A DNA stretch of 64,000 nucleotides from Streptomyces sp. JHA26 (GTDB lineage: Bacteria > Actinomycetota > Actinomycetes > Streptomycetales > Streptomycetaceae). The DNA is taken from the NCBI RefSeq assembly GCF_002005565.1, contig NZ_BDJC01000022.1, positions 1 through 64,000 of the forward strand, written 5' to 3'. Below, one piece after another: positions 14,487 to 32,270 of this stretch. The notes beneath the pieces are model-generated. The model had not been told where the DNA came from. It searched no databases and saw only the letters and a list, made by a program, of their open reading frames with translations. How positions within the stretch are numbered: the first letter of the stretch is position 1; every line of letters starts with the position of its first letter. A program made the position numbers and the translations under genes.

Positions 14487-14519
14487 CAGGTCCGGGCGCA
14501 GCGGCGGGCCGGCCAGGGT

Positions 14520-14539
14520 GTGGACGGCCGTCGGTCCAC
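14520..14539. terminator. Weak hairpin between convergent hydrolase and response regulator
   Basis: GTGGAC at 14520-14525 and GTCCAC at 14534-14539 form a 6-bp stem with an 8-nt loop in the 90-bp gap between two converging genes. Position suggests termination; the stem is short. Confidence 0.35.
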
Positions 14540-14576
14540 GGCACCGTGACTTGGGTAGGCCGCCGGGCGTCGAAAG

Positions 14577-15245
14577 TCAGCCGGTGCCCGGCGTCACCAG
14601 GCCCGACTCGTAGGCCACGACGACCAGTTGGGCCCGGTCCCTCGCTCCGAGCTTGCCCATGATGCGGCTGACGTGGGTCTTCGCGGTGAGCGGGCTCAAA
14701 CCCAGGGTCTCGGCGATCTCGGTGTTGGTGAGGCCCCGGGCGACCAGGGTGAGGACCTGGCGTTCCCGGTCCGTCAGGCAGTCGGGGCCCGGTCCGGGCG
14801 CGTCGGGGAGCGCCGGGCTGCGCAGGAAGCGCTCGATCAGGCGGGCCGTCGGGCCGGGTGAGAGGAGGGCGTCGCCCGCGGTCACCGTGCGGATGGCGTC
14901 CAGGAGGTCGGCGGGTCTCGTGTCCTTGACCAGGAAGCCGGAGGCACCCGCGCGCAGCGCCTCGACGATGTTCTCGTCGGTGTCGTAGGTGGTGAGGACC
15001 AGCACCTTCACGCCTGCCAGGTCCTCGTCGGCGGCGATCAGGCGGGTCGCCTCGATGCCGTCCAGGTCGGGCATGCGTACGTCCATGACGACGAGGTCGG
15101 CGCGTTCGCTGCGGGCCAGTTCCACGGCCTCGCGGCCGGTGCCGGCCTCGCCGACGACCTCCATGTCGGGGGCCGACGCCACCAGCAGGGCGAACGCCGC
15201 ACGGACCAGGTTCTGGTCGTCCGCCAGCAGTACGCGTATCGTCAT
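14577..15245 (-). CDS. NarL/FixJ-family response regulator
   Basis: A 222-residue DNA-binding response regulator. The receiver domain (1-120) has the acidic pair LADD, the phosphoacceptor Asp at about 55 (VVMDVRMP), Thr-Thr at about 85 and Lys at about 107 (LVKD). The LuxR-type helix-turn-helix occupies about 155-215 (LTDRERQVLTLVARGLTN, SPLTAKTHVSRIMGKLGARD). Its ATG overlaps the kinase stop by 4 nt (ATGA), so it is coupled to its cognate kinase. With the MMPL gene upstream, the likely target is that exporter's own promoter. Confidence 0.93.
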   Translation of the reverse strand: MTIRVLLADDQNLVRAAFALLVASAPDMEVVGEAGTGREAVELARSERADLVVMDVRMPDLDGIEATRLIAADEDLAGVKVLVLTTYDTDENIVEALRAGASGFLVKDTRPADLLDAIRTVTAGDALLSPGPTARLIERFLRSPALPDAPGPGPDCLTDRERQVLTLVARGLTNTEIAETLGLSPLTAKTHVSRIMGKLGARDRAQLVVVAYESGLVTPGTG

Positions 15246-16501
15246 CCGGCTCGCTCCGGGGTCAGGGTCGTTCGGGGGGTGGCGGGGGTCGGCAGGACGG
15301 CCGTCACCTCGAAGCCGTCGGCGTTCCGGCGCGGTCCGGCGTCGAGTGTGCCACCCACGCTGCGGGCCCGCTCGCGCATGCCGACGAGGCCGAAGCCGGG
15401 GGTGCCCGCCGGGTCGGGTCCGGTGCCGTCGTCGGTGACGGACAGGCGCAGGGCGCCCGGCTCGGCCCGCACCTCGACGCGGACGGACGGCTCGGGTCCC
15501 GCGTGGCGTACGGCGTTGGTCAGCGCCTCCTGCGTGATGCGGTAGACGGCGGCGCCGACCGCGGGCGGGACGTCGTCGGCCTGCACCGACAGGTCCACGG
15601 CCGCTCCGGCGAGCCGGGCGCTCTCCGCCAGGTCGGGCAGGCCCCGCAGGCCGGGCAGCGGACCGCGGGCCTCAGGGACGCCGGCGGGGTCCTGGGCCCG
15701 CAGGACCTCCAGGGTGGTGCGCAGTTCGCCGCGCGCGGAGCGGCAGGTCTCGGCGATGTCGTCGAGGGCCTTGGCGACGGCCGCGCGGTCCAGGCGCTCG
15801 GGGTCGGCGGTCAGGACGTGCGCGGCGACCGAGGTCTGCACGCCGATCAGGGTGATGCTGTGCGCCAGCAGGTCGTGCAGGTCCCGGGCGACGCGCAGGC
15901 GTTCCTCGGCGACACGCCGCCGGGCCTCCTCCTCGCGGGTGCGTTCGGCGCGTTCGGCGCGCTCCACGATGGAGGCGACGTACTGGCGGTAGTAGCGGAC
16001 GTCGATGCCGCAGAAGAGGATGGCGACGATCCAGCCGGAGATGCGGATCAGTTCGAGGGCCTGGTGGGTGTCGACGGTGAGCATGATGCTCACGGACACG
16101 GTGAGGACCGCGATGCCGGTGACGACGGTGCGCAGGGGGCGGCCGGTGACGGCGAGCGTGTAGAGCGCCACGTAGGAGGCGGGGCCCGCCGCGCTGTGGT
16201 TGTTGTCCAGCGCGTGGTACGGCACGACCAGTGCCATCAACGCCGCGAGGACCAGCAGCGGGTGGCGTCGCCGCCACACGATCGGGACGTGCGCGGCGAC
16301 CAGCAGCGTCCAGCCCAGGGCGTCCGGGCGACGGCCGTCCTCGGTGAACAGCGCCAGGCAGACGGCGGCCAGGAGGAGGACCCCCGCGAGCACGGCGTCG
16401 TTGCGGGTGCCGTGCGGGGCGGTGCGCGGGTCGCGGTTGATCGCGGCGATGATCCGCTCGGCCGGACGGGGACGGGACGCTTCCCGGGTGGTTGCCTGCA
16501 C
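15242..16501 (-). CDS. Sensor histidine kinase of the HisKA_3 (NarX/DesK-like) type
   Basis: A 419-residue membrane kinase. The N-terminal about 170 residues hold roughly five to six hydrophobic helices. A short linker leads to the H-box (RVARDLHDLLAHSITLIG), whose His is the phosphorylation site, and the ATPase domain has QEALTNAVRHAG (N box), DDGTG and GFGLVGMRERA. I chose GTG at 16501, with GGAGG 8 nt upstream; the frame continues further upstream only as the shadow of the MMPL gene. It lies 67 nt downstream of the exporter gene. No obvious extracellular ligand domain, so it may sense the membrane or bilayer stress; this is inference. Confidence 0.92.
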   Translation of the reverse strand: MQATTREASRPRPAERIIAAINRDPRTAPHGTRNDAVLAGVLLLAAVCLALFTEDGRRPDALGWTLLVAAHVPIVWRRRHPLLVLAALMALVVPYHALDNNHSAAGPASYVALYTLAVTGRPLRTVVTGIAVLTVSVSIMLTVDTHQALELIRISGWIVAILFCGIDVRYYRQYVASIVERAERAERTREEEARRRVAEERLRVARDLHDLLAHSITLIGVQTSVAAHVLTADPERLDRAAVAKALDDIAETCRSARGELRTTLEVLRAQDPAGVPEARGPLPGLRGLPDLAESARLAGAAVDLSVQADDVPPAVGAAVYRITQEALTNAVRHAGPEPSVRVEVRAEPGALRLSVTDDGTGPDPAGTPGFGLVGMRERARSVGGTLDAGPRRNADGFEVTAVLPTPATPRTTLTPERAG

Positions 16502-16568
16502 GCGTCCATCCTCCGCGACGGGCGCGCCCCTCCGGGAGGGGAGGGACGCGTTCCGCCGACCCGGCGCC

Positions 16569-18647
16569 TCAGACACCGAGGGGCTCCCGCACCTCGTCGG
16601 GCGCGGGCCGGCCGGGCTCGCGGGACAGCCGTCCCGGCCACCACACCCGGCGCCGCAGGGCGACGCTCGCGCTGGTGACCAGGTAGGTGCGGACCAGGAA
16701 GGTGTCGAGCAGGACGCCGACCGCGATGACGAAGCCCAGCTCGACCAGCTGGACCAGCGGCATGTTGACGAGCACGGCGAAGGTGGCCGCGAGGACCAGA
16801 CCGGCCGAGGCGATGACGCCACCGGTGGCGCGCAGCGCGGCCAGGGCCGCCCGGGTGGGTTCGGCTCCCTTCAGGGCCTCCTCGCGCATCCGGTGCATCA
16901 GGAAGATGCCGTAGTCGACGCCGAGGGCGACCAGGAAGACGAAGGAGAGCAGGCCGAGCCCGGGGTCGGTGCCCTCGAAGCCGAAGAGGGGGCCGAAGAC
17001 GAGCCCGCCGACGCCGAGGGCCGCGCCCCACACGGCGACGACGGCGGCGACCAGGATCAGCGGCGCGACCAACGAGCGCAGCAGCACCGTGAGGATCAGC
17101 AGCACCGACAGCAGCACGATCGGTACGACGATGGCGGTGTCCCGGGCGTTGGTGTCCTCCAGGTCGATCTGCTCGGCGCTGGGGCCGCCGACGTAGGAGC
17201 CGTCGAGTGTGTCGCGCAGGGCTTCGACGGTGGCGGTCTCGGCGGCCGACTGGGGCGGGGCGGAGGCCAGGACGGTCAGCTCCGTCCACCCGCCGCCGCT
17301 GCGGCCGGCCTCGGCGCTCTCGACGCCCTCGGTGGCGCGGATTGCGGTGAGCGCGGCCTCGGCGCGGTCGGTGGGGGCGATGACGCTGATCGGCTGGCTG
17401 CCGCGCTCCGGGTAGGCGTCGGCGAGGGTCTCCATCGCGGCGATCGCGTCGGGGCGGGTGGTGAAGGTGTCCTCCTGTTTGAGGTTGCCGGGCAGGGCGA
17501 ACGCGCCGAGCGCGAGCGCGCCGAGCAGGACGGCGCCGCCCACCAGGACGGTGCGGGGCCGGCGTTCGGCGGAGCCGCCCATCGCGGCGAACAGCGACCT
17601 GCGGGCCTTGGGGCTGCTGCCGTAGCGGGGCACGAGCGGCCAGAAGACGCGGCGGCCGAGCAGGACGAGGAGCGCGGGCAGCAGGGTCAGCATGGCGGCC
17701 AGCGCGCACAGCACGCCGACGGTGCCGAGGGGGCCCATGCCGCGGCTGGAGTTGAGGTCGGCGGCGAGCAGGCACAGCAGTCCGGCGGCGACGGTGCCGG
17801 AGGAGGCGAGCACGGCGGGGCCGCAGCCGCGCAGGGCGGCGAGCATCGCGTCGTACGGCCGCTCGATACGGCGCAGTTCCTCGCGGTAGCGGGAGACCAG
17901 CAGCAGCGCGTAGTCGGTGCCGACACCGAAGACGAGGATGGTCATGATGCCGCTGGACTGGCCGGAGACGGCGGTGCCGAAGGTCTGGTTGAGGCCGTAG
18001 GCGACGCCCATGGAGAGGTAGTCGGCGAGTCCGGCGACGGCGAGCGGGACGAGCCAGAGGAAGGGGCTGCGGTAGATGAGGATCAGGAGGAGGGCGACGA
18101 CCCCGGCGGTGGTGTAGAGCAGGGGGCCGTCGAGGGAGTCGTAGACCTCGGAGGCGTCGGTGGCGAGCGCGCCGGAGCCGCCGACCTTCACGCTGAGCCC
18201 GTCGCCGCCCCGGGCGATGTCCCGTACGTCGTTGACGAGCGCGTCGCGGGCCTTCTCGTCGGTGCCGGGCTCGGTGGAGGCGACCGGGTACATGAGGGTG
18301 GTGCCGTCCTGGGACGGGATGCCCGTCGGGCGGGCGGTGAGTTCGTGCGCGGCGGCGATCTCGGCAACCTGCCGGGCGGCGGTGGTGCGGTCGGCGGCGG
18401 TCAGTCCGGCGTCGCGGTGGTAGACGAGGACCATCTCGGTGGTCTCGCCGCCCGGCAACTGCTCCTGGATCTTGGCGACCTGCGTCGAGTCGGCGCTGGC
18501 CGGCAGGTAGTCGACGGCCCGGTCGCGCTGCACGTCGCCGAGTTTCGCCGCGAACGGCGCGGCGATCGCCAGTACGGCGATCCACAGTCCGAGCACCAGC
18601 CACGGCACGGCCCGCCGCCGCCCCGCGCCTGTCTTCTTGGCCCCCAT
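16569..18647 (-). CDS. MMPL/RND-family transporter
   Basis: A 692-residue inner membrane transporter with two MMPL repeats. Each has one helix followed by a large extracytoplasmic loop and five clustered helices, including GVGTDYALLLVSRYREEL and GVDYGIFLMHRMREE, the duplicated GxxxD(Y) motifs of the proton relay. Family members export lipids, siderophores or drugs. The start ATG at 18647 has GGGGAG upstream. It heads an operon with a two-component system, an arrangement seen for lipid- and envelope-stress-responsive MMPL exporters. The substrate cannot be told from sequence. Confidence 0.92.
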   Translation of the reverse strand: MGAKKTGAGRRRAVPWLVLGLWIAVLAIAAPFAAKLGDVQRDRAVDYLPASADSTQVAKIQEQLPGGETTEMVLVYHRDAGLTAADRTTAARQVAEIAAAHELTARPTGIPSQDGTTLMYPVASTEPGTDEKARDALVNDVRDIARGGDGLSVKVGGSGALATDASEVYDSLDGPLLYTTAGVVALLLILIYRSPFLWLVPLAVAGLADYLSMGVAYGLNQTFGTAVSGQSSGIMTILVFGVGTDYALLLVSRYREELRRIERPYDAMLAALRGCGPAVLASSGTVAAGLLCLLAADLNSSRGMGPLGTVGVLCALAAMLTLLPALLVLLGRRVFWPLVPRYGSSPKARRSLFAAMGGSAERRPRTVLVGGAVLLGALALGAFALPGNLKQEDTFTTRPDAIAAMETLADAYPERGSQPISVIAPTDRAEAALTAIRATEGVESAEAGRSGGGWTELTVLASAPPQSAAETATVEALRDTLDGSYVGGPSAEQIDLEDTNARDTAIVVPIVLLSVLLILTVLLRSLVAPLILVAAVVAVWGAALGVGGLVFGPLFGFEGTDPGLGLLSFVFLVALGVDYGIFLMHRMREEALKGAEPTRAALAALRATGGVIASAGLVLAATFAVLVNMPLVQLVELGFVIAVGVLLDTFLVRTYLVTSASVALRRRVWWPGRLSREPGRPAPDEVREPLGV

Positions 18648-18770
18648 CTGTCGGGCTCCCCTCCGGTGGGTGTCTGGGTCGGTCTCCAGACTCCCGGCGG
18701 CGGGGCGCGGGCGCGTCGGACGTGAGGGCGAGCACCGCGCTACTGCCCGGGGAGACGCGGGGCCCGCGTT

Positions 18771-18784
18771 ACTCCCCGGGGAGT
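18771..18784. promoter_or_regulatory. 14-bp perfect palindrome between MMPL and SCO2520-like genes
   Basis: ACTCCCCGGGGAGT is a perfect palindrome 11 nt after the SCO2520-like stop and about 125 bp before the MMPL start. A related sequence, ACTGCCCGGGGAG, lies about 30 bp away at 18742. It may terminate the upstream operon, or the pair may form a binding site for the response regulator of the MMPL operon. I cannot decide between these. Confidence 0.4.
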
Positions 18785-18794
18785 ACGGCGGCGG

Positions 18795-19988
18795 TCAGGC
18801 CCGGTCGACCATCCAGTTGCCGTCCTCCTCGGCGTCGACCCGCACCTCCAGCTCGCGCAGGCTCATGCTCCCCTCCCAGAGCTCCTTGAAGCGCTTCATC
18901 CGGTCCCGTACGTGTTCCTGACGGGCGATGAGCCGTGTCCTGACGTTGACGTCGCGCAGGTCCTGCTCGATCTCGAAGGACACCTCCTCGTCGAAGACGA
19001 TGAAGTCGTTGGTGGTGCCGCGCTGGAGGTGCGGGGGCAGTTCGGGAAGGACCGCCGCGCGTACCTCGATGTGCCGCAGTTCCTGCTCCTCGCACAGCCG
19101 CAGCAGCCGGTCGTCGAGCTCCCGCGCGCTCTCCAGCAGGAACAGCCGGCGCACCGACACGCCGTGTTCGTCGACCGCGTCCTGCTGGGCCTCCAGGTAG
19201 CGGCTGGCGGGCTCGCTGTTCCAGAACTCGCGGTCGACGGAGGTGCTGGTGGCGCAGATGGACTGCTCGGCGGCCCGGGTGAGGGCGAGCATCCAGTCGT
19301 GGTTCTCGCCCGGGCACTCCGCGGTCAGGTTGGTGAGGTCCGCCATGTAGCCGACGACCCGCGTCATCTCCAGGCGGACGAAGGTGTAGAGGATCGAGGG
19401 GCCGGGGGCGAGGACCTCGGCGAAGCTCTTGGCCAGTTCGGGCACGCCCTCGATGCGGGCGCGGTCGAGCGGGGGGTAGGGCTGCTCGGCGCCGTGGCCC
19501 GCCTGGACGAGGTGGTTCTCGACGAGCTGCTTCACGTCCTCGGTGTGCCGGACCAGGCCGGTCCGCAGCTCGTCGTCGTACTGGTTCAGGCCGTCGCGCA
19601 CGGCGGCGGCGTGCTCGGCCAGTGCGGTCTCCACGCGGCGGGTGTGTTCCTCCACCCGCCGGGTGTGCTCCTCCACCAGCAGGTCACGGGTGTGCGGGTC
19701 CCTCGCGCGCGGGTCCTCGGTGGGCCGGCCCAGGCCGTGGACGTACTGGACGAGCACCGCGGCGGCGGCGCACAGGGCGGCGGTCGCTAACTGCCGCAGC
19801 GGGCCGCTGTCCGGGCTCAGCAGTGCGGTGACGCTCCAGGCCAGGGCGCCGAGGACCAGGCCGGTCAGCAGGCGGCGCGGCCACGGGGACTCCCCCGTCA
19901 GGACCGCGGGGCCGGGGACCGCCGGGCCGTCCGTGCGGCCGGGTGCGACGGCCGGGTCGTCGGGCTGGGGTGACTGTGCCGTGCTCAT
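18795..19988 (-). CDS. Membrane-anchored coiled-coil protein, SCO2520-like, unknown function
   Basis: A 397-residue protein. Residues about 35-90 contain two hydrophobic segments (LLTGLVLGALAWSVTALL and LATAALCAAAAVLVQYV) that anchor it. They are followed by a coiled coil with a short internal repeat (VEEHTRR twice) at about 105-160. The C-terminal about 200 residues form a soluble domain rich in charged residues (EFWNSEPASRYLEAQQ, RRLFLLESARELDD, FIVFDEEVSFEIEQDL) that recalls PLD-like or TrmB-C-like sensor folds, without an HKD motif. Last gene of the six-gene operon, 75 nt after the preceding one. It could anchor the soluble partners at the membrane; this is inference. Confidence 0.72.
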   Translation of the reverse strand: MSTAQSPQPDDPAVAPGRTDGPAVPGPAVLTGESPWPRRLLTGLVLGALAWSVTALLSPDSGPLRQLATAALCAAAAVLVQYVHGLGRPTEDPRARDPHTRDLLVEEHTRRVEEHTRRVETALAEHAAAVRDGLNQYDDELRTGLVRHTEDVKQLVENHLVQAGHGAEQPYPPLDRARIEGVPELAKSFAEVLAPGPSILYTFVRLEMTRVVGYMADLTNLTAECPGENHDWMLALTRAAEQSICATSTSVDREFWNSEPASRYLEAQQDAVDEHGVSVRRLFLLESARELDDRLLRLCEEQELRHIEVRAAVLPELPPHLQRGTTNDFIVFDEEVSFEIEQDLRDVNVRTRLIARQEHVRDRMKRFKELWEGSMSLRELEVRVDAEEDGNWMVDRA

Positions 19989-20063
19989 CTCGCTTCTCCC
20001 CCCGTTGGGATACGCGTCGGATCGGGGTGCTGCGGGGATGTGCGTGGGAGGTCGTGCCGTCGC

Positions 20064-21041
20064 TCAGGACGCCGGCTCCACCTCCCGGTGGGCCGAGGGG
20101 ATCGCGTGCAGCGTCAGCTGGTCGCGGATGCGCTGCACCAGCGTTCGCCACTGGCGGGTGAAGCCGGGCCGCTCCTCCAGCGGGTCCCACAGCGCGGCCA
20201 GCTCCTGGGGCACCCGGGCACGCGGCATCCACAGGTGCAGCAGGTGGTGGACGGCGGGGCGCAGGGCCTCGACGACGGCGAGGCCGTGTTCCGGGCCGCC
20301 GCCCAGGCGGATGCCGTCGAGCATGCGGACCAGGGTGGTGAGCAGCCAGTCGTGCAGGGCGAGGTCGTCGCACAGGGCGGCGAGGTCGGCGCCGGCGGTG
20401 TCCTCGGGCACCCGGAGCAGGACGGTGCGCAGTTCGTCCTCGGCGAGCGTGAACCGTTCGATCGACGGGCCCTCGCCCGGCGGGGCGGGCAGGGCCGCCC
20501 AGCGCAGCCGGGTGGGGCGGGACCGCAGGGGCGGCCGGTGGTCGAGGAGGGGGTGGCGCAGCAGCCGGGTGAGCAGCCCGTCGGCGATCAGTCCGGCGTC
20601 GAGGTCGCCGTGCCGCCCGCCGCCGAGCACGCCCTGCGCGACCGCCTCGCGGGGCAGCCGGCCGAGCGGTTCGACCACGCCGGGCCGCACCAGGTAGTGG
20701 CCCCAGGGCCGGCGCTGGTCGGGTCCGGCGGCGGGGACGCGGAAGTGGGCGGAGACCTGCAGGACGCGGCCCTCGGTGAGCGCGGCCCGCGCGACGACCG
20801 TGCCGACCGCGCGGACCCGGGCGCCGTTGGCGCTGGGCAGGGGGCAGTCGACGCCGGTGAGGGTGTCGGGGGAACGCGCGTAGAGGTTGGGGCGTTCGGA
20901 GAGCAGGACGCGTTCGTCGGCGCGCAGGCCCAGGAGCTGGGCGGCGGCGCGGATGTCGAGGGCCTGCCGGGTGGGCAGCAGGCAGGTGCGGACCTCTCCG
21001 CAGGCGAGCACGGAGTCCGGCGCGTTCTCCCGCGGCGCCAT
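20064..21041 (-). CDS. SCO2521-family protein, unknown function
   Basis: A 325-residue protein without membrane segment or known catalytic motif. It begins with a beta-rich part (ACGEVRTCLLPTRQALDI) and becomes mostly helical toward the C-terminus (LHDWLLTTLVRMLDGIRLGGG, VHHLLHLWMPRARVPQELA). I recognise it as the actinobacterial family that I recall NCBI naming after SCO2521. The start ATG follows the stop of the preceding gene by a single nucleotide, so translation is coupled. It always appears, as far as I know, with the P-loop gene two places upstream, which points to a shared complex. Confidence 0.78.
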   Translation of the reverse strand: MAPRENAPDSVLACGEVRTCLLPTRQALDIRAAAQLLGLRADERVLLSERPNLYARSPDTLTGVDCPLPSANGARVRAVGTVVARAALTEGRVLQVSAHFRVPAAGPDQRRPWGHYLVRPGVVEPLGRLPREAVAQGVLGGGRHGDLDAGLIADGLLTRLLRHPLLDHRPPLRSRPTRLRWAALPAPPGEGPSIERFTLAEDELRTVLLRVPEDTAGADLAALCDDLALHDWLLTTLVRMLDGIRLGGGPEHGLAVVEALRPAVHHLLHLWMPRARVPQELAALWDPLEERPGFTRQWRTLVQRIRDQLTLHAIPSAHREVEPAS

Positions 21042-21042
21042 G

Positions 21043-22008
21043 TCAGAGCCCCGCGTAGTAGACGTAGGAGATGCGGTCGGCGACCGAGTCGGGGACGGTC
21101 GTCCGCTCGCCGGCGGACCGTTTGGCCGCCTGGTCCAGCGCGTGCGGGTCGACCTCGATCTGGTCGAGGATCACGCGGACGGCGTGCTCGACGGGCAGGA
21201 ACCGGGTCGGCAGCACCGAGCAGGTCCGGTAGGCGGCGAACGGGTCGGCGCGGGGGTTGAGCCGCAGCAGCGAGGGCAGTTCGTCCCAGTCGTCGGGGAA
21301 GCCGGCGGTGGTGTGCGGCTGGGGGACGAGGACGGCCTCGCCCTGGTTGCGCAGCAGGCCGAGGCGGGCGAGCTGCCACACCGCGGCGAGGAAGGGGCAG
21401 GACCAGGTGCGCTGCCCGTCGGCGTCGTCGCTCCACAGCTCGACGTCGAGGAAGACGGAGTGGCGGCGGGCCGCGGTCTCCCGGGGCGGCTGCCAGGGGA
21501 CGGCGCGCTTCATCGCCTGCGGGGCGCGGGCGACGGGGCTGCGCTCGCCGTTGGCCAGCCAGCCGCTCTGCGCGGCGGGCGGCCGCATGCCGTAGCTGCC
21601 GGGCGGCGGCGACTCGACGATGCGGCCGGCCACCGCCTCGGCGACGGGCACCTTGCCGGTGACGGCGCAGCCGGACTCGCGGGCGAGGTAGTCGACGGTC
21701 AGCCCCGCACGGTCGGCCTCCTCCAGGAGCATGGGGACGACCTCGGCGGGGGTGGAGAAGCGGGTGAAGTAGTCGTCGACGAGGAAGCAGGTGCTGATCC
21801 GGGCGCGCTTGCCGCCGGTGCGGGCGACGGCGGCGGCGCGGGCCGCCTCCGCCCAGGGGCGGACCTGGGTGAAGTGCTCCCGCAGCCGCTCGGGGCCGGC
21901 CTCGAAGTCCTCCATGTAGAGGTGACCCAGCTCCAGGGAGAGATGGGCCAGCGGCACCGCCTCGGTGCGCGGCTCGGCGGCGGTCTCGCGGAACCGGGTC
22001 TCCGTCAC
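21043..22008 (-). CDS. SCO2522-family protein, unknown function
   Basis: A 321-residue soluble protein beginning TETRFRETAAEPRTEAVPL. Conserved-looking blocks are LSLELGHLYMEDF, ARISTCFLVDDYFTRF and SVFLDVELWSDD; the spaced acidic residues after beta-strand-like stretches suggest an enzyme-like alpha/beta fold, but I cannot name it. The GTG at 22008 overlaps the stop of the P-loop gene as GTGA; an open frame continues upstream to 22263, but only as the shadow of that gene. It belongs to what I recall as the SCO2522 family, found with the P-loop protein. Confidence 0.78.
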   Translation of the reverse strand: MTETRFRETAAEPRTEAVPLAHLSLELGHLYMEDFEAGPERLREHFTQVRPWAEAARAAAVARTGGKRARISTCFLVDDYFTRFSTPAEVVPMLLEEADRAGLTVDYLARESGCAVTGKVPVAEAVAGRIVESPPPGSYGMRPPAAQSGWLANGERSPVARAPQAMKRAVPWQPPRETAARRHSVFLDVELWSDDADGQRTWSCPFLAAVWQLARLGLLRNQGEAVLVPQPHTTAGFPDDWDELPSLLRLNPRADPFAAYRTCSVLPTRFLPVEHAVRVILDQIEVDPHALDQAAKRSAGERTTVPDSVADRISYVYYAGL

Positions 22009-22922
22009 GGCCGCCCCCAGTACGTGTCGTCCGTCAGGCGCCGGGCGATCTCCTCCAGCGCTTCCAGGGTCTCCTTGTTGGCGATCTGGGTGGAGAGCAC
22101 GTCCTCCTCGGTGATCAGCTGTTCGCGCCACTGGAGTATGGGTTCCAGCGGCACGACGCCGAGGACGACGCTGTCGCCGATGCGGTGCTCGGCGGCGAGC
22201 CTGCGCAGCGCCTCGTCGCAGGCCTGCATCCAGGCGGCCTGGGCGGGTGAGCCCTGGGACCACAGCGGCGACTCGGGGTCGGGCACGGCGGCCCGGACGA
22301 AGCGGACGGCGGCGTGCAGCGCCTCCTCGTCGTGGCCGCGTTCGACGCCGCCGCGGATGATGCCGTGCTCGGCGTGGACCAGTCCGGAGGCGGCGATCAC
22401 GTGCTGGCGGGTCCAGCGGTGGAAGACGAGCCAGCGGAAGGGGACGAACTGCATCCGGGGGTGGGCGGTCGCCGCGAGGACCATGTCGACGGCGTAGCTG
22501 CGGCCGGCGCTGAGGTCCACGACGATCAGGTCGAACTCGCCGTTGAGACGCAGCAGCAGGTCGATACAGCGTTCGAGGGCGTCCTCGTCGGTGGCGAACT
22601 CGCCGCCGCCCGCGTCGCCGGGGAACAGGACCAGCCGGCCGGACTGGTTGGGGCGGGAGCGCAGCAGGGGGTGCTCGGTCTGCCGCCAGACGTCGATCCG
22701 GGCGGGCTCGGCGATCTCGCCCTCCAGGTAGGAGTGGAGGCCGCGTTCCTCGGTGCCGCGCATGGCGCCGGGCACGTCGAAGACGGCGGCGGCCGTGGGC
22801 GAGCCGAAGTCGAAGTCCACGTAGGCCACGTGGTCTCCGGTGAGGGCGCGCTGGTAGGCCAGGTTGGCGCTGGTCACCGAGCGGCCGGTGCCTCCCTTGT
22901 CGGAGGCGGCGAAGACGAGCAC
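22005..22922 (-). CDS. SCO2523-family MinD-like ATPase with variant P-loop
   Basis: A 305-residue protein of the SIMIBI/MinD-ParA fold. It opens VLVFAASDKGGTGRS: the signature Lys of the deviant Walker A (KGG) is present, but the second, phosphate-binding Lys is replaced by Arg (KGGTGRS instead of KGGxGKT). A Walker A'-like YVDFDFGSP follows at about residue 35 and a Walker B-like LIVVDLSAGRS at about 125. ATP binding is likely, hydrolysis uncertain. A GTG at 22928 overlaps the upstream stop (GTGA), but the AGGAGG site is 7 nt from the GTG at 22922, so I prefer the latter. Both sides are coupled by 4-nt overlaps or nearly so. Confidence 0.82.
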   Translation of the reverse strand: MLVFAASDKGGTGRSVTSANLAYQRALTGDHVAYVDFDFGSPTAAAVFDVPGAMRGTEERGLHSYLEGEIAEPARIDVWRQTEHPLLRSRPNQSGRLVLFPGDAGGGEFATDEDALERCIDLLLRLNGEFDLIVVDLSAGRSYAVDMVLAATAHPRMQFVPFRWLVFHRWTRQHVIAASGLVHAEHGIIRGGVERGHDEEALHAAVRFVRAAVPDPESPLWSQGSPAQAAWMQACDEALRRLAAEHRIGDSVVLGVVPLEPILQWREQLITEEDVLSTQIANKETLEALEEIARRLTDDTYWGRP

Positions 22923-22924
22923 GC

Positions 22925-24769
22925 TCACACCTCCTGTGCTGCGGCGCCCCTGGCCTGGGCCAGGGTGTCGAGTTCCTGAAGGACGGGCAGGGCGAGGGCG
23001 AAGGCGGTGGCGGGCCGGTCGTCGACCAGGCTGCGGGCGTGGTCGAGGCGGCTCTCGATGCTGCGCATCGCCCGGGCTCTGCTTCCGTCGGCGGCGGCGG
23101 ACGCCTCCAGCTGTTCCTTGCCGAACAGGTGGGTGGCCTCGCTGAGCAGTTCGCGGGCCAGTTCGGCTAGTTCGGGGCTGCGGATGGGCTGCTGCTCGTA
23201 CAGGTTGCGGGCGGCGACGAGGCATTCGGTGACGCGCTCGGTGATGCTCCAGGACATGCGCAGCTCGGCGTCGCGCGCGCCGGGGTAGACGGCCCGGACG
23301 TTGTCCCAGAGACCGGCGCCCTCGTCGTCCTCTATCCGCCGGTTCCACAGGTGCTCGAAGGTCTGTTCGGCGAGGCGGAGCAGCCGGTCCTGTGCGCCGA
23401 CGTTCCGGGAGAGTTCGGCGAGCTGGATGATCCGCTTGAGGAGCTGGGCGGAGAAGTCGGTCATGCGCCACAGGAGGAGCCCGCCGGAGCGCTCGGATCC
23501 GGCGAGCGGCATGGTGACGCCGGGGTTGTGCAGTCGGATGGTGGGGTCGTCCCGGGTCATCCGGCTGGTGACGCGGCCGCGGTCGGCCAGGCGTTCCATG
23601 ATGGCGACGGTGCGGGTGAGGTCGTCGTCGGTGGCCTTCCGGCGGACCAGGTCGTGGACGAGGATGGCGGCGACGGTGAGGGAGAAGTACTCGGACTCCA
23701 GCTGCAGGCCGGTGGTCTGCCAGGGCAGGTCCTCCAGGGGCCAGCGTTCGGATCCGAAGCGGGCGATCGCGGACCAGTACTGCTGGCTGAGTTCCCAGCG
23801 CAGGCGCAGTGCCTCGGCGAGCTTCTGCTGGTCGGCGTCGAGCAGACCGAGGGTGAGGGTGCGCTCGGAGAACAGGTCCTGGATACCGTCCAGGGCGACG
23901 ACGGTGAAGTACACGTAGGGCAGCCGGTCGGCGATGCCGTCGGGCTGGCCGGGCACCTGGACGGCCAGGTCGGTGACCTTGGGCGCGTCCTGGACGATGC
24001 CCCAGGCCCAGCCGCACTCGAAGAGCTGGCTCTCGTCCCGGATGCCCTCGTCGAACTGGATGCCGCGGGTGAGGCTCTCGATGATCGTGGCGCGCAGGGG
24101 ACGCAGTCTTCGGGAGAACTGCTGGAGGGCGATCCGGTCGGACTGGCTGCCCTGGCCGATGACCTGGATCAGCCTGCGGCCCTGCTCGGACTCGGCGTCG
24201 AAGACGTTGACGGTGAAGGAGCGCAGCAGGCTGATCATGGCGGAGGTCAGCCGGGCGTTCGTGGCCTCGCGCAGCTCGGCGATCGCCTTGAGGATCTCGG
24301 GGCGGGTGGTGGTGGTCTCGTAGACCTTGAGGTATCCGAGGGTGGCGAGGCAGAGCGTGACGGACATGGAGTAGGAGTCCACCACGCCCAGCTGGCCCTG
24401 CTCGTGGGTGAGCTGCCCCCGGGGGTCGGCCGGTTTGAAGTAGTGCCCGCCGGCGAAGGTGGGGCTGTCGTCCGGTCCGGTGTGGGTGCGCATGAACTGG
24501 GTCAGCGCCGTGATCAGGTTGGCGGGGATCTCCAGCCGGGTGCCGACCCTCTCCAGCGCGCGCAGCACGTCGCGTTCGGTGGTGTCGGGCTGGTCGAGGC
24601 GGAACGCGGGGACCTCGGTCGCCGGATACAGCAGGCACAGCAGCCGCTCCGCGTCCGCGACGCTGCTCAGTCCGTCGGTGGGCCCCTGGACCAGCTTCCC
24701 GTCGTCGAACGAGTGGCGGGCCATGGCCTGCCAGATGTCCAACAGGTGCTGGCGTGGCTTGATCTGCAT
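22925..24769 (-). CDS. SCO2524-family large helical protein, unknown function
   Basis: A 614-residue protein, predicted by eye to be almost all alpha-helical and without transmembrane segments. It starts MQIKPRQHLLDIWQAMARHSF. Notable blocks are AGGHYFKPADPRGQL, SYSMSVTLCLATLGYLKV, DRLPYVYFTVVALDGIQDLFSERT and LWRMTDFSAQLLKRIIQLAELS. No enzyme motif is visible; it resembles a large scaffold or solenoid. The ATG at 24769 has GAGGGG about 9 nt upstream. Its TGA overlaps the start region of the variant P-loop ATPase. I recall the family as SCO2524. The strict coupling suggests a direct partner of the ATPase. Confidence 0.8.
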   Translation of the reverse strand: MQIKPRQHLLDIWQAMARHSFDDGKLVQGPTDGLSSVADAERLLCLLYPATEVPAFRLDQPDTTERDVLRALERVGTRLEIPANLITALTQFMRTHTGPDDSPTFAGGHYFKPADPRGQLTHEQGQLGVVDSYSMSVTLCLATLGYLKVYETTTTRPEILKAIAELREATNARLTSAMISLLRSFTVNVFDAESEQGRRLIQVIGQGSQSDRIALQQFSRRLRPLRATIIESLTRGIQFDEGIRDESQLFECGWAWGIVQDAPKVTDLAVQVPGQPDGIADRLPYVYFTVVALDGIQDLFSERTLTLGLLDADQQKLAEALRLRWELSQQYWSAIARFGSERWPLEDLPWQTTGLQLESEYFSLTVAAILVHDLVRRKATDDDLTRTVAIMERLADRGRVTSRMTRDDPTIRLHNPGVTMPLAGSERSGGLLLWRMTDFSAQLLKRIIQLAELSRNVGAQDRLLRLAEQTFEHLWNRRIEDDEGAGLWDNVRAVYPGARDAELRMSWSITERVTECLVAARNLYEQQPIRSPELAELARELLSEATHLFGKEQLEASAAADGSRARAMRSIESRLDHARSLVDDRPATAFALALPVLQELDTLAQARGAAAQEV

Positions 24770-24837
24770 CCCCGTACCCCTCGTACAGATCTCGTTGCCC
24801 TGTGTTCAGACCGTGCGCTCAGACATGGTCCCCGTTC

Positions 24838-25587
24838 TCACGGGGCGGCAATCTCCGCGTTCCGCTGTCCCAGGGCGAGGAGGATTCCCTCGTGTCCCGG
24901 CCGCACCACGTGGTGCAGGTCGTGGATCTCCAGTTCCTTGCAGTAGGGGATCAGGCTCTCCCTGGCCCGGTCCTCGTTCACCCGGTAGGCCGGGTAGCGG
25001 TGTTCCCCGACCCGGTATCCGACCGACTCCTTCATGAAGGCGGCGGCGAAGGGTGCTCCCTCGCCGAGCGCGTTCATGAAGCACCGCACGCCCCGTTGGA
25101 ACTCCTCGGGGCACTCGGACATCGAGTCGGCGACGAAGAACATCGTCCCGATGTCCCAGCGGGTCTGCCCGTCGAGGTCGAAGAGGTTGCCCTGCTCCAC
25201 CCGGACGATCTCGCTGAACCGGGCCCTCGGCTCCAGGTCGCGGTAGGCCGGGGCCTCCCGGAGCTCCTCCCAGAAGGCGTCCCAGGCCGTGTCGTACCCC
25301 TGGGCGGAGGCCTGCCTCTTCAGGTACTCGACGTTCGGGCCGGCGTACTCGAGGAGGAGCACCTTCTCGCACCAGGGGAGCATGGACAGGGCGGGGTAGA
25401 GGTTCGCACCGGCACCGACGTCGACACCCCGGACGGCGTCCGGTACGGCCCCCTCGAAGCAGCGGCTGAAGTGGTCGCGCATCAGGCGCACGATCAGCCG
25501 GTCGACCTCGAGTGGGGTCCGGTAGTTGTTGTCGACATACACCTCGGGATCGAATTTCGACCAAGGCGCGTCGGCATTGCGGTCCAT
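24838..25587 (-). CDS. SCO2525-family SAM-dependent methyltransferase (NNMT/PNMT-like)
   Basis: A 249-residue class I methyltransferase. The glycine-rich SAM loop is VDVGAGANLYPALSM at about residue 55, followed by the acidic ribose-binding LLLEYAGPN. The C-terminal half (FVADSMSECPEEF, then MKESVGYRVGEHRYPAYRV) resembles the NNMT/PNMT/TEMT small-molecule N-methyltransferases more than tRNA or protein methylases. The start ATG at 25587 has AGGG nearby; a GTG at 25593 is also possible. It is the first gene of the six-gene operon, 68 nt before the SCO2524-like gene. The substrate is unknown and is a key question for the system. Confidence 0.82.
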   Translation of the reverse strand: MDRNADAPWSKFDPEVYVDNNYRTPLEVDRLIVRLMRDHFSRCFEGAVPDAVRGVDVGAGANLYPALSMLPWCEKVLLLEYAGPNVEYLKRQASAQGYDTAWDAFWEELREAPAYRDLEPRARFSEIVRVEQGNLFDLDGQTRWDIGTMFFVADSMSECPEEFQRGVRCFMNALGEGAPFAAAFMKESVGYRVGEHRYPAYRVNEDRARESLIPYCKELEIHDLHHVVRPGHEGILLALGQRNAEIAAP

Positions 25588-25912
25588 AGTCACCCTGCCG
25601 CGTTCCGTTCGCTTGTGGACAAGACCGCGCGTGCGAGCACGGGTCCTGTGGACGCCGACCGGTGAAGAGGCGTCTCCTTGTTCGCAAGATAGGCCGCCAC
25701 CATGCATCCGGACAGCCGGGAACCCGCCAGTCCACATCCTTCGGGCGCACGTCAGGCGCACCGTTGCACACCCTAACTCTCCCTTGCACGGCGGGAGTTG
25801 GGCGCTCACTCTAGCCAGAAGGAGCACCGGGCCGCCAGCGGGACCGTTCATTCCATCGAGTGCGTCCCGATGCCCGTCGTGTTGACGTCCGCACATCCTG
25901 ACTGGGGGTGGC
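25588..25912. other. Divergent intergenic region, methyltransferase / GNAT
   Basis: This 325-bp gap must contain the promoter of the six-gene operon and that of the GNAT gene. Visible structure: TTGCAC at 25764-25769 and again at 25784-25789 (exact 20-bp phase, same orientation), and AACTC...GAGTT arms around the second copy. Two helical turns between copies suggests binding on one DNA face. I see no small gene. Confidence 0.4.
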
Positions 25913-26467
25913 ATGACCGCCGAACCGCTGGAACGCGCCCTGGACCGCCACGAGCAACTCACGCAGCGGGGGCCGTTCCCGGACGCCCTGCCCCCGGTCC
26001 TGCGGACGGCACGGGAGTCCGACCTGCCTGAACTGCGACGACTCGACGAGGAGGTCTTCCAGGAGGTCGCCTATCCGGGCTTCCTGCTGCGCCAGCTCTT
26101 CGACATGTACGCGGACCACTTCCTGGTCCTCGACGGCGGCGGGGGCCGGCTGCGCGGCTACGTGCTGGCCGCCACGACGACGCCGGCGCTCGGCCGGGAC
26201 AGCTGGATCCTCGGCCTGTGCGTGGCCCGGGACCGCCGCCGGAACGGGCTCGGCCGGGAACTGATGACGGAGATCCTGGCCCGGTTGCGCCGGGACGGCG
26301 TCGAGCGGGTCCGCCTCACCGTGGAGCCCGCCAACCACGCCGCGATCCTGCTCTACCGCTCCCTCGGTTTCGATCCCGAGGGTCCCGACGCCGGACTGCG
26401 CCCGGACTACTTCGGGCCCGGCATGGACCGCCTCGTGCTGTGCCTGGACCTCACCGGGAACCGCTGA
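25913..26467 (+). CDS. GNAT-family N-acetyltransferase
   Basis: A 184-residue acetyltransferase. The GNAT core spans about residues 35-175, with motif A (LCVARDRRRNGLGRELM, acetyl-CoA pyrophosphate loop R/Q-x-x-G-x-G/A) and the downstream block TVEPANHAAILLYRSLGFDPEG. The 35-residue N-terminal extension is outside the fold. The ATG at 25913 follows GGGGGTGGC. It is divergent from the six-gene operon and ends 6 nt from the convergent TerB-like gene. Acceptor unknown; RimI-like protein acetylation or a small molecule are both possible. Confidence 0.88.
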   Translation: MTAEPLERALDRHEQLTQRGPFPDALPPVLRTARESDLPELRRLDEEVFQEVAYPGFLLRQLFDMYADHFLVLDGGGGRLRGYVLAATTTPALGRDSWILGLCVARDRRRNGLGRELMTEILARLRRDGVERVRLTVEPANHAAILLYRSLGFDPEGPDAGLRPDYFGPGMDRLVLCLDLTGNR

Positions 26468-26473
26468 GCGGCG

Positions 26474-27169
26474 TCACGACGGCGTGCCCGCCGACTCCAG
26501 CAGTCGGGTCACGTCGTCGGAGCGGAGGGTCAGGGCCGCGCCGACCGTCGCCAGGGCGTCGCGCTCGGCGGGTGTGTAGGGGCCGTCGGCCAGGGCGATG
26601 CGGGCACCCTGGAGGAGGATCGACTCGCGGCCGGCGGCGGCGAGGTGCGGGGCCAGCGGGTCCAGCGCCTCGTGGAGCTCTATGGCGAGTCCGGGCACGC
26701 AGGGTTCGTCGCGCACCCGCCCGGTGTCCGCCTCGAGCGCCTCGACCAGCGCGCCGAGCCGGTCCTCGGTGCAGTCCTCGAAGCCGGCCGCGCGCACCGC
26801 GGCGACCGCCGCCTCCAGGGAGGTGCGGGAGCAGGTGCCGCCCGCGGCGAGCACCGCGAGGGCGACGGTGTGGACGGCGTCGCGGAGCATCGCGGAGAAG
26901 CGGGTGGTGGTCGGGTGGTCGAGGACGTCGGTGCCGTAGTGGCGGCGGCAGGCCGCGCACTCGACGGTCGGCGCGGACTCGCCGCGCGGCAGCACGGGCA
27001 CCCCGAGCAGGGTGAAGCGGCGGCGGCCGGCGAGGCGCTGGTAGTTGCGGTCGCCCCCGCAGCCGGGGCAGAAGAACTCGCCGTCGCCGACGGGTGTCCA
27101 CGCGGTGCGGGTGCCCAGGACGCGGGGCAGCCGGGCAGCTCGGTCGTCTCGTCCCCGTCCAGGCAGCAC
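26474..27169 (-). CDS. TerB-like protein with N-terminal zinc ribbon
   Basis: A 231-residue protein. The N-terminal 60 residues carry two CxxC pairs (FFCPGCGGDRNY and VECAACRRHYG) that should form a zinc ribbon. The C-terminal 150 residues are helical and fit the TerB/tellurite-resistance-like fold (RIALADGPYTPAERDALATVGAAL near the end). Chosen start is GTG at 27169, with GGAGG 6 nt upstream; the frame is open to 27229. TerB proteins bind metal and membranes in stress responses; its role here is unknown. A perfect 7-5-7 inverted repeat lies just upstream. Confidence 0.8.
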   Translation of the reverse strand: MLPGRGRDDRAARLPRVLGTRTAWTPVGDGEFFCPGCGGDRNYQRLAGRRRFTLLGVPVLPRGESAPTVECAACRRHYGTDVLDHPTTTRFSAMLRDAVHTVALAVLAAGGTCSRTSLEAAVAAVRAAGFEDCTEDRLGALVEALEADTGRVRDEPCVPGLAIELHEALDPLAPHLAAAGRESILLQGARIALADGPYTPAERDALATVGAALTLRSDDVTRLLESAGTPS

Positions 27170-27210
27170 GTCGCACCTCCGTAACCGCGCGGCAACATCG
27201 CCGCGCTTGC

Positions 27211-27229
27211 GTGATGTTAGCCACATCAC
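27211..27229. promoter_or_regulatory. Inverted repeat upstream of TerB-like gene
   Basis: GTGATGT-TAGCC-ACATCAC is a perfect 7-5-7 inverted repeat about 42 bp before the GTG start. Read on the minus strand it contains TAACAT, a possible -10, so a dimeric repressor bound here would mask the promoter. Confidence 0.5.
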
Positions 27230-27297
27230 CGACGTGGAGTCAGTACCCCGGAGGAGACCTTTCCGTGACCTACTCGGGGAGATGGCCGGTATACGAC

Positions 27298-27334
27298 GGG
27301 GCCCCGCCCGCCGTCCTGCGGCGGGCGGGGCCCC
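27298..27334 (-). terminator. Hairpin terminator after leuA
   Basis: A perfect 15-bp GC stem (27298-27312 with 27320-27334) around a 7-nt loop begins about 20 bp past the leuA stop. It lacks a T run, as is common in streptomycetes. Confidence 0.85.
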
Positions 27335-27353
27335 GGTTCACCGATCCGGCTGG

Positions 27354-29218
<1,865 letters not shown>

Positions 29219-29409
29219 GATGCCCAGCACCTTAGCCGAGCCACGCCGGTCACGCGGGTCCGTATCAGTATGCGGGACCACGGAGGGTATCGGGACAAAA
29301 AGTGCCGTATACCACCTCCCGCCGCCCGGCGGGCCCTCTTGGCACCGCATTCCACCGATCACGGTCGCGGGGGGTGACAGGACCGTCACACAGTGCGATG
29401 GTTCCGGAC

Positions 29410-30480
29410 ATGACGACCAACGGGGGCTTCGAGCCCGTCTTCTGCACCATCGTGCCGCCCCACGTCCTCGACAAGCTGGCCCGGAACGCGGACCCCGTGC
29501 TGGCCGGGCCCGCCCGCCGGACCATCCAGCGCGACGCCGCCGAGCGCACCCGCCGCGGTCTGACCACCGTCATCGGCGCCCCCGCCGTGGCTCCCCGCGC
29601 GGGCGCCGAGGCCGGCAGGCCCCACCGCACGATCTACGACGCCCGGCACGGCACCGACCTGCCCGGCCGCGAGGTGCGCGGCGAGGGCGACGAGCCCGGG
29701 CGGGACGCCACCGTCAACCGCGCCTACGCGGGGCTCGGCGCCACCTTCGAGCTGTTCCTGAAGGCGTACCGGCGCGACTCCATCGACGGCGCGGGGCTGC
29801 CGCTGGACGCGACCGTGCACTACGACCGCGAGTACAACAACGCCTTCTGGAACGGCGAGCAGATGGTCTTCGGCGACGGGGACGGGGAGATCTTCCTCGA
29901 CTTCACCATCCCCGTGGACGTGATCGGCCACGAGCTGGCCCACGGCGTCACGCAGCACACCGCCAACCTGACCTACTACGGCCAGCCCGGCGCGCTGAAC
30001 GAGTCGGTGTCGGACGTCTTCGGCTCCCTCATCAAGCAGTACTCGCTCGGCCAGAGCGCCGCCGAGGCCGACTGGCTGATCGGCGCCGGCCTGCTCGCCC
30101 CGCGCGTGACGGGGGAGGCGCTGCGCTCGATGAAGGCGCCGGGCACGGCGTACGACGACGACGTCCTCGGCAAGGACCCGCAGCCCGCCACGATGGACGA
30201 CTACGTGCGCACCGGCCGCGACAACGGCGGCGTGCACATCAACTCCGGCATCCCCAACCACGCCTTCTACCTCGTCGCCACGGAACTGGGCGGCCACGCC
30301 TGGGAGCGGGCCGGACAGGTCTGGTACGACGTGCTGACCGGCGGCGAGCTGCGCGAGGACGCGTCGTTCGCGGACTTCGCGACGCTGACGGTGAGGGCCG
30401 CCCGGGAGCGCTACGGCGACGGGGACGAGCTGGAGGCGGTGCGCAAGGGCTGGGAACAGGTCGGGGTGCACACGCGGTAG
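29410..30480 (+). CDS. Protealysin-like M4 metalloprotease
   Basis: A 356-residue thermolysin-family zinc endopeptidase. HELAH at about 174-178 gives two zinc ligands and the catalytic Glu, and Glu about 198 (LNESVSDVFG) is the third ligand. A downstream NGGVHINSGIPNHAFY contains the transition-state His. There is no signal peptide. The short N-terminal propeptide contains CTIVPPHVLDKLA, resembling the PP-x-x-L motif of protealysin-type precursors, so it probably works or is stored inside the cell, or leaves by an unusual route. GTGACA (29374) - 17 nt - GATGGT (29397) ends 7 nt before this ATG, supporting a leaderless start; ATG 29398 is the alternative. The next gene encodes its likely inhibitor. 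Confidence 0.88.
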   Translation: MTTNGGFEPVFCTIVPPHVLDKLARNADPVLAGPARRTIQRDAAERTRRGLTTVIGAPAVAPRAGAEAGRPHRTIYDARHGTDLPGREVRGEGDEPGRDATVNRAYAGLGATFELFLKAYRRDSIDGAGLPLDATVHYDREYNNAFWNGEQMVFGDGDGEIFLDFTIPVDVIGHELAHGVTQHTANLTYYGQPGALNESVSDVFGSLIKQYSLGQSAAEADWLIGAGLLAPRVTGEALRSMKAPGTAYDDDVLGKDPQPATMDDYVRTGRDNGGVHINSGIPNHAFYLVATELGGHAWERAGQVWYDVLTGGELREDASFADFATLTVRAARERYGDGDELEAVRKGWEQVGVHTR

Positions 30481-30501
30481 TTCCGTACTAGACACGGTCC
30501 C

Positions 30502-30768
30502 ATGCGGATTCAGGTGAGTCGCACAGGAGGCTTCGCGGGCATCGAACGCCACGCGGAGATCGACACCGCGGGACGCCCCGACGCGGCCGAGTGGCACGCC
30601 CTGGCCGAGCGGGCGCTCGCCGGCGGACGGGACACGCCGCCCGTCGGGGTGCCGGACGGGTTCAGCTACCGGATCACCGTGGACGGCAGGACGGTGTACG
30701 CGGCCGATCCCCGGCTGACGGACGAGCAGCGCAGGCTGATCTCGCGGGTCCTGAAGGAGGGCGCGTGA
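30502..30768 (+). CDS. Emfourin-type protease inhibitor
   Basis: An 88-residue cytoplasmic protein beginning MRIQVSRTGGFAGIERHAEID and ending in a helical DEQRRLISRVLKEGA. The pattern 'I.V.RTGGFAGI' followed by an FSYRITVDG segment matches emfourin (M4in), the slow-binding proteinaceous inhibitor first found beside protealysin in Serratia. It follows the M4 protease by 21 nt in the same direction, the same protease-inhibitor operon layout. It presumably protects the cytoplasm from the co-expressed enzyme. Confidence 0.82.
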   Translation: MRIQVSRTGGFAGIERHAEIDTAGRPDAAEWHALAERALAGGRDTPPVGVPDGFSYRITVDGRTVYAADPRLTDEQRRLISRVLKEGA

Positions 30769-30825
30769 CGCCGTCCGCGCGCAAGGGCGTTGACTTCCGT
30801 CACCGGGGGTACGGATGATCCGCGC

Positions 30826-32151: not shown

Positions 32152-32270
32152 GCGGGGACCGGGTGTACTCCGGCGCCGGTCGGATAAAAGACCTGGGTGC
32201 TGTCGGCGCGGAGTCGTACGCTGGAGACAGCAGACACACCCGTCACGCGGCGCACGCCGCAGAGGAGGAC

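Follow-up and report, generated by a model that had tools for sequence, protein, structure and literature searches.

The locus and its genes

The window analysed here comprises the first 64,000 nucleotides (nt) of contig NZ_BDJC01000022.1 of Streptomyces sp. JHA26, part of a 7.3-Mb genome, and the subject of this study is the minus-strand operon at positions 25587–18795, which encodes proteins of the families SCO2525, SCO2524, SCO2523, SCO2522 and SCO2521 and a further protein, called gene 6 below. All six frames proposed in the original prediction were found at their coordinates, and the NCBI families SCO2521 to SCO2525, which it had named, were recovered with five proteins above their NCBIfam cut-offs. 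It had omitted a divergently oriented GNAT gene upstream and a DUF6879-like stretch at the C-terminus of gene 6. The features are listed in the reading direction of the operon:

25913..26467, plus strand: GNAT acetyltransferase, divergent from the operon (Pfam Acetyltransf_1, 61 bits)
25775..25799, no strand: imperfect inverted repeat AACTC..GAGTT in the divergent GNAT/methyltransferase intergenic region, possible operator
24838..25587, minus strand: SCO2525-family S-adenosylmethionine (SAM)-dependent methyltransferase (MT), NNMT/PNMT-like (NCBIfam 312 bits, cut-off 240)
22925..24769, minus strand: SCO2524-family protein, 614 aa, predicted alpha/alpha toroid with C-terminal helices (NCBIfam 932 bits, cut-off 300)
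22005..22928, minus strand: SCO2523-family variant P-loop ATPase, MinD/ParA/Mrp-like, with DKGGTGRS (NCBIfam 505 bits, cut-off 200)
21043..22008, minus strand: SCO2522-family protein, fold not recognised by sequence (NCBIfam 487 bits, cut-off 200)
20064..21041, minus strand: SCO2521-family protein, fold not recognised (NCBIfam 417 bits, cut-off 150)
18795..19988, minus strand: gene 6, with N-terminal hydrophobic segment(s), coiled coil and DUF6879-like C-terminus (hydropathy, weak profile matches)

The tight joins that had been proposed were seen as two GTGA overlaps (22928/22925 and 22008/22005) and one 1-nt gap (21042), and the outer joins, taken from the coordinates, are wider (68 nt between MT and SCO2524, 75 nt between SCO2521 and gene 6). 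The closest named relatives of the SCO2524 protein were those of S. flaveolus (97%) and Streptomyces sp. SID5910 (96%), in a comparison from which very near records were possibly omitted.

Composition of the unit across genomes

Two sets of loci were compared. The class sample consisted of 197 genomes, in which the NCBIfam cut-offs were applied for SCO2521–SCO2525 and orthologues were accepted at E ≤ 1e-10 for gene 6 and E ≤ 1e-25 for GNAT; the named-locus set consisted of the best 80 of 408 SCO2524 relatives (78 Streptomyces, one Kitasatospora and one unclassified actinobacterium). The 22 loci taken from the class sample and the 80 named loci overlap, as L062/L123 and L065/L122 are identical in all five proteins compared and L060/L087 share an identical SCO2523. 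Profile alignments contained 14 (A1), 14 (A2), 18 (A3) and 17 (A4) rows from the 23 core genomes described below, 17 of 20 gene-6 copies (A5), 13 of 16 MT copies (A6) and 16 of 18 GNAT copies (A7); L066, L067 and L072 were excluded from the gene-6 alignment, the last with a frame truncated by the chosen start. The gene-6 and GNAT profiles were built from operon genomes, and the informative part of their counts is the near absence of matches elsewhere. A simple gene caller used for drawing neighbourhoods lost SCO2524 in L062 and L068 and often misframed SCO2523 and SCO2522, and no count relies on it.

Of the 197 genomes, one set of 23 had SCO2521, SCO2522, SCO2523 and SCO2524 above their cut-offs, and no genome had any one of the four above its cut-off without the others. 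The order of these genes was constant across the 23 genomes, which represent four of the sampled actinomycete families (f1, f3, f58 and f59). Gene-6 orthologues were found in 20 genomes and MT in 16, all of them among the same 23; the GNAT orthologue was present in 18 of these and gave two weaker matches in other genomes. Because the core is shared by the same genomes and the other three genes by fewer of them, the unit is a four-gene core (2524-2523-2522-2521) accompanied by three optional satellites (MT, GNAT and gene 6). The six-gene co-occurrence of the original prediction can be kept in corrected form, with four genes inseparable, gene 6 and MT present in part of these genomes, and the GNAT gene that it did not list belonging to the unit. 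Four operon genomes of family f58 carry the core and gene 6 without MT or GNAT, and GNAT is located downstream in one locus (L075, genome G049). In a phylum-wide sample, SCO2523 was above its cut-off in 4 of 149 genomes, every one of them of the window's class.

The 80 named loci share one gene order, GNAT(divergent)-MT-2524-2523-2522-2521-gene 6, with MT present in 79, SCO2524, SCO2523 and SCO2522 in 80 each, SCO2521 in 79, gene 6 in 77 and GNAT in 78. The incomplete loci (L102, L104, L113, L118 and L125) end on the side of the missing gene; GNAT adjoins MT in 78 of 80, and L118 and L125 begin at or near SCO2524.

Two observations on SCO2525 relatives are recorded separately. Distant relatives with 28–30% identity occur in four congeners that lack the operon (L162–L165, in genomes G275, G212, G319 and G293), and a second short SCO2525-like stretch (71 bits), perhaps the remnant of a duplicate, lies upstream of GNAT in one genome (G265:C554:20898-21098).

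Gene joins and protein co-evolution

Join conservation in the 80 named loci exceeds chance: the gap between SCO2524 and SCO2523 is ≤ 6 nt in 80 of 80, the 4-nt overlap of SCO2523 and SCO2522 occurs in 75 of 80 and the 1-nt gap between SCO2522 and SCO2521 in 71 of 79, and the satellites are joined more loosely (medians of 65 and 76 nt). The 22 loci of the class sample also cover other families, and their join lengths depend on start codons chosen by a script; here the SCO2524/SCO2523 join measures -4 to 14 nt in every case. The coupled joins of the original prediction can be upheld for Streptomyces; outside the named-locus set, the SCO2524/SCO2523 join is the only one that stays tight.

Pairwise protein distances were compared across loci after incomplete or very short frames had been dropped, which left 94 to 103 rows per gene. 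Correlations reached r 0.955–0.978 between core pairs, 0.92–0.94 among GNAT, MT and gene 6, and 0.79–0.95 between satellites and core. In the subset of 53 rows at the leuA site, four operon pairs gave r 0.89–0.94 versus 0.65–0.77 for LeuA against operon genes, LeuA being a weak control (it is very conserved) and all correlations retaining shared ancestry.

The SCO2523 ATPase

The variant Walker A motif that had been described, KGGTGRS with Arg in place of the phosphate-binding Lys, was read in the window as DKGGTGRS and turned out to be a property of the whole family. Among 103 SCO2523 sequences (100 of them distinct), K11, R16, D38, D40 and D138 never vary; 102 of the sequences have the motif KGGTGRS and one has KGGAGRT. 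SCO2523 resembles the MinD/ParA/Mrp (SIMIBI) ATPases in keeping the signature Lys (K11), Ser/Thr at 17, D38/D40 and D138 and in its Pfam match to CbiA, and differs from MinD/ParA in the P-loop residue before Ser/Thr, which is Arg in 103 of 103. The score against the MinD equivalog TIGR01968 was 24.9 bits, with a cut-off of 212.9. The closest solved chains are of Mrp type (3kb1 with E 3.9e-6, 2ph1, 8zkc and 6g2g, which are Mrp/ApbC/Cfd1 proteins), and the similarity covers about 70 N-terminal residues.

In MinD/ParA proteins the signature Lys reaches across the dimer interface, and the Asp of Walker A' takes part in hydrolysis. Since both are kept in SCO2523 despite the Arg, the pattern of conservation suggests a slowed switch or a long-lived dimer with bound ATP, and not a protein in decay. 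As a separate observation, the SCO2523 model also weakly matched open frames of 1,300–1,750 codons in several genomes (G193, G184, G202, G256, G301 and others), which may encode large multidomain proteins that contain a P-loop domain of related type.

The satellites: gene 6, MT and GNAT

The membrane-associated member of the original prediction was recognised in gene 6, which combines predicted hydrophobic segments with an apolipoprotein-type coiled-coil match (22.6 bits). By simple hydropathy the window copy has one such segment (residues 40–58), and one or two were found within the first 220 residues of 18/18 class-sample and 73/77 named-locus copies. DUF6879 matched 15 of 17 gene-6 members at E ≤ 0.5 (best 5.1e-8); in the window copy it scored 15.3 bits (E 0.014), with a Pfam cut-off of 23.9. 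A DUF6879 scan of the window's own genome gave no match anywhere, with its controls silent as well.

MT matched PF01234 (NNMT_PNMT_TEMT) with 30.5 bits at a gathering cut-off of 25 and the NNMT/PNMT entries of PDB at E about 1e-7, and 94 of 95 sequences carry the SAM motif D.G.G.N.YP. In the alignment with NNMT, PNMT and TEMT the substrate region diverges, and the alignment is weak as regards the nicotinamide-binding residues of NNMT. The closest solved structures to GNAT are Ard1/RimI-type N-alpha-acetyltransferases, and its score stays below the RimI cut-off (46.7 vs. 86.4 bits). In PHROGs, one match was ParA-like and others were to acetyltransferases; the remaining matches, to families without assigned function, were weak (E of 0.03 or higher).

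Predicted structures of SCO2524 and SCO2522

Structures were predicted from alignments of 47 rows for SCO2524 (the window plus 46 of 59 non-redundant loci) and 51 rows for SCO2522 (the window plus 50 of 67), nearly all from Streptomyces. The AlphaFold2 model of SCO2524 had a mean pLDDT of 74.7 and a pTM of 0.76. Its best VIA match was chain D of 9u61, a C3 convertase complex (Z 16.5, root-mean-square deviation (rmsd) 4.0, 282 residues aligned), followed by AGE-type epimerases at Z of about 15 and by Z 12.8 at rank 50, to be read against the values that the tool notes for helical models (typical best Z 14; Z 6, up to 13, at rank 50). Foldseek gave a best E of 0.028 and no match at E ≤ 0.001. 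We take the structural matches listed to be alpha/alpha toroids (C3/C5 TED, AGE-type epimerases, GH76 and squalene-hopene cyclase), and residues 1 to about 527 of SCO2524 are accordingly modelled as a putative alpha/alpha toroid, followed by C-terminal helices. Such a ring could possibly serve as an enzyme or as a scaffold. LanC-like and prenyltransferase folds, which were not among the matches listed, may also apply to SCO2524.

The SCO2522 model was poor (mean pLDDT 52.9), which is probably explained by the Streptomyces-dominated alignment rows. Its best VIA match had Z 7.6 (rmsd 4.1, 172 aligned), a level expected by chance for unmatched models, and Foldseek returned mixed folds in its top rows with no match at E ≤ 0.001. 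The 50 fold rows listed are presumably HUP folds (class I aminoacyl-tRNA synthetases, two universal stress proteins, MshC and one cyclodipeptide synthase), and they are highly redundant, with many entries of one methionyl-tRNA synthetase and of tyrosyl-tRNA synthetase variants. A HUP fold like that of class I aminoacyl-tRNA synthetases is consequently a weak lead only. The cyclodipeptide synthase row raised the idea that SCO2522 itself is such an enzyme, which was rejected on sequence grounds at an hhalign probability of 0.5% against 16 cyclodipeptide synthase sequences, a comparison that leaves room for distant structural kinship. A common origin of SCO2521 and SCO2522 was likewise rejected (hhalign probability 0.2%). 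Sequence searches against solved structures with SCO2524, SCO2522, SCO2521 and gene 6 gave nothing useful (best 5mq9, E 0.042).

Chromosomal sites

Among 20 genomes of the genus, 7 have the operon, counting that of the window. In the 13 congeners without it, the leuA-TerB site is present with no operon gene within the approximately 15 kb taken, and in 7 of these 13 an MMPL gene follows directly after TerB, 140 to 960 nt on. Among 73 loci with enough flanking sequence, 51 lie at the leuA/TerB site, 19 share a common other flank and 3 stand alone. Because relatives have empty sites and there are two main chromosomal sites, the cassette has moved, or was gained or lost, as a block. A search with SCO2524, the one gene of the seven so examined, gave no match among 72,556 plasmid records, among 50,697 phage records or in viral contigs, and on this result the reading as a mobile element was dropped.

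The inverted repeat of the GNAT/MT region was followed as the pattern AACTn(10-18)nAGTT, which occurs in 45 of 54 leuA-site loci vs. a mean of 0.34 in mononucleotide shuffles and in 0 of 24 other loci, in a set of related loci and with a pattern picked after the sequences had been viewed. Its retention may reflect conservation by descent. Outside the leuA site, a different repeat, CTTGA..TCAAG, was seen in the GNAT/MT region of 8 of 24 loci.

Flanking genes in the window

By Pfam, the neighbours of the operon are an MMPL transporter, a histidine kinase, a response regulator, TerB, leuA and PhoH. This agrees with the S. coelicolor locus, in which SCO2528 is leuA (PMC6585502), sco2517 is named together with ecrA1/A2 (PMC11472566) and a role as an efflux membrane protein is assumed for SCO2519 (PMC6585502, PMC11538686). 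The MMPL transporter, histidine kinase and response regulator at 14577–18647 would by position be SCO2519 and the EcrA1/A2 pair, and a possible export of undecylprodigiosin by SCO2519 has been suggested (PMC11538686). A 969-aa minus-strand frame at 29386–32295, which lies over plus-strand genes and has no family match, is probably a spurious antisense frame and served as a flank marker in some neighbourhood comparisons. Scans for promoters and terminators gave none in 18600–26500, and no Rfam family was found in 14000–30000.

Functional interpretation

Gehring (2004) is reported to have found that SCO2525 influences colony growth and development. Other publications assign the S. coelicolor operon sco2521-sco2526 to the HupS regulon and describe SCO2525, with reference to Gehring 2004, as necessary for normal growth (PMC11472566), include SCO2525, with a morphogenetic role, among the targets of HrdB (PMC6344877) and record an earlier mutagenesis of this SAM-dependent methyltransferase (PMC3017869). 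No mechanism for the operon appeared in the excerpts returned by a literature search with the locus names.

The explanation that we would place first, tentatively and at somewhat less than an even chance, is a complex built around an ATPase and tethered to the membrane, joined by two modifying enzymes that are optional, with a part in growth or development. The four core proteins would most likely form one complex, driven by SCO2523 as a deviant-Walker-A (SIMIBI, MinD/ParA/Mrp-like) ATPase, which may work as a slow switch or form a long-lived ATP-bound dimer. The toroid SCO2524 would be the main partner of SCO2523, because its gene keeps the tightest join to that of the ATPase. Gene 6 would anchor the complex at the membrane, the optional MT and GNAT would modify a subunit or a substrate of it, and the cassette would have its role in growth and development, in Streptomyces and in some few further families of actinomycetes. 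In favour of this explanation are the occurrence of the core in one set of genomes, the close SCO2524/SCO2523 join, the correlated distances of the core proteins, the five invariant residues of SCO2523, the hydrophobic segments of gene 6, the retention of gene 6 in the unit even where its position has changed (L076 and L078) and the published work on the S. coelicolor operon and SCO2525.

Several points weigh against this explanation. The P-loop Arg may do no more than prevent nucleotides from binding, the link to development was made for SCO2525, which is one of the optional genes, and a metabolic pathway would also account for the co-occurrence and the tight joins. A tether is not obligatory, as 4 of 77 named-locus copies of gene 6 have no hydrophobic segment and one genome (G184) has the core with all three satellites below thresholds. 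In the class sample, the SCO2523/SCO2522 join is ≤ 5 nt in 12 of the 20 loci where the genes adjoin and the SCO2522/SCO2521 join in 11 of 22, with gaps reaching 119 and 164 nt, respectively, and in L076 and L078 the core is interrupted by gene 6, which sits between SCO2523 and SCO2522.

A pathway of this kind, in which SCO2522 is a HUP ligase, SCO2524 a toroid enzyme, GNAT and MT tailor a small-molecule signal or cofactor and SCO2523 drives or gates the process, is the less likely of the two, and the evidence separates them poorly. It would agree with the HUP folds, similar to class I aminoacyl-tRNA synthetases and MshC, in the rows listed for SCO2522, with the many invariant D/E/H/N/W residues of this protein, which look enzyme-like, with the epimerases, glycosidases and terpene cyclases among the structural neighbours of SCO2524, and with the presence of two small-molecule-type transferases in the unit. 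Against it stand the low confidence of the SCO2522 model, its chance-level and redundant fold matches and mixed Foldseek rows, the lack of a sequence match between SCO2522 and solved structures, the low cyclodipeptide synthase probability, and the absence of MT from 7 and of GNAT from 5 of the 23 operon genomes. The proposal that the system centres on making or sensing a methylated small molecule is not supported, because the core occurs without a match to MT in those 7 genomes.

The original prediction had also considered a role in conflict, which in its fullest form would be a phage-defence system in which a MinD-like protein without catalytic activity serves as decoy or switch and gene 6 as a SLATT-like two-transmembrane effector. 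The patchy presence within the genus would suit such a system, as would the low score of gene 6 against SLATT_fungal (14.8 bits, below the NCBIfam cut-off of 35). Inactivity has also been predicted for the MinD/ParA-like domains that occur in MoxR-vWA conflict systems (PMC7159879), a parallel in its favour that may have been the source of the analogy. This role is nevertheless improbable and has gained little support: PADLOC, run on 7 proteins, gave a single match, to the P-loop of the ATPase (39 residues, 18.8 bits), SCO2524 was found in none of the collections of plasmids, phages and viral contigs, the unit occupies few chromosomal sites, and the phenotype cited for SCO2525 is one of growth and development.

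More speculative still, and rated a shade below the defence system, is a new ATP-switched enzyme complex in which SCO2522, as a HUP protein derived from aminoacyl-tRNA synthetases, would supply an amino acid, either by activating it or by drawing it from tRNA, the SCO2524 toroid would shape the product, a membrane-bound MinD-like dimer with the Arg P-loop would gate the release of a developmental signal, and optional acetylation and methylation would tune it. A metal or Fe-S cofactor carrier module is very improbable, as the Mrp-type matches of SCO2523 that favour it span the N-terminal part alone, the P-loop Lys is replaced, and the CxxC motif with which Mrp/ApbC carriers bind their cluster is missing from the 307-aa window protein.

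Comparison with known systems

Conservons (cvn), which are defined by GTPase, roadblock and DUF742 proteins, are similar to the present cassette in being conserved multi-gene operons around a nucleotide switch, and differ from it in that the six operon proteins have no GTPase, roadblock, DUF742 or kinase match in Pfam. One of them, cvn12, is named in the same HupS group (PMC11472566). The VMAP and MoxR-vWA ternary conflict systems differ in their partners, as neither MoxR nor vWA was found in the 16 frames of the window scanned with Pfam (6 of the operon and 10 neighbours).

The nearest known counterpart is the sco2521-sco2526 operon of S. coelicolor, whose families are present in the window above their cut-offs; SCO2526 would correspond to GNAT, as judged from the gene order (with SCO2528 as leuA). 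With this cassette, four families without known function are inseparable, and one partner in their operon is cited with a developmental role. The division into core and satellites can guide the choice of deletions and partner tests, and the SCO2523 family is a natural case for asking what the P-loop Lys of the deviant Walker A motif is needed for. The cassette is in this respect a clean and testable unknown rather than a demonstrated new kind of system. The named families, the operon and the developmental role of SCO2525 are already in print, and the present analysis differs from the published account in adding gene 6 and the division into four core genes with GNAT, MT and gene 6 as satellites, the behaviour as a cassette with two main sites and empty sites in relatives, the family-wide invariant Arg and the predicted toroid of SCO2524.

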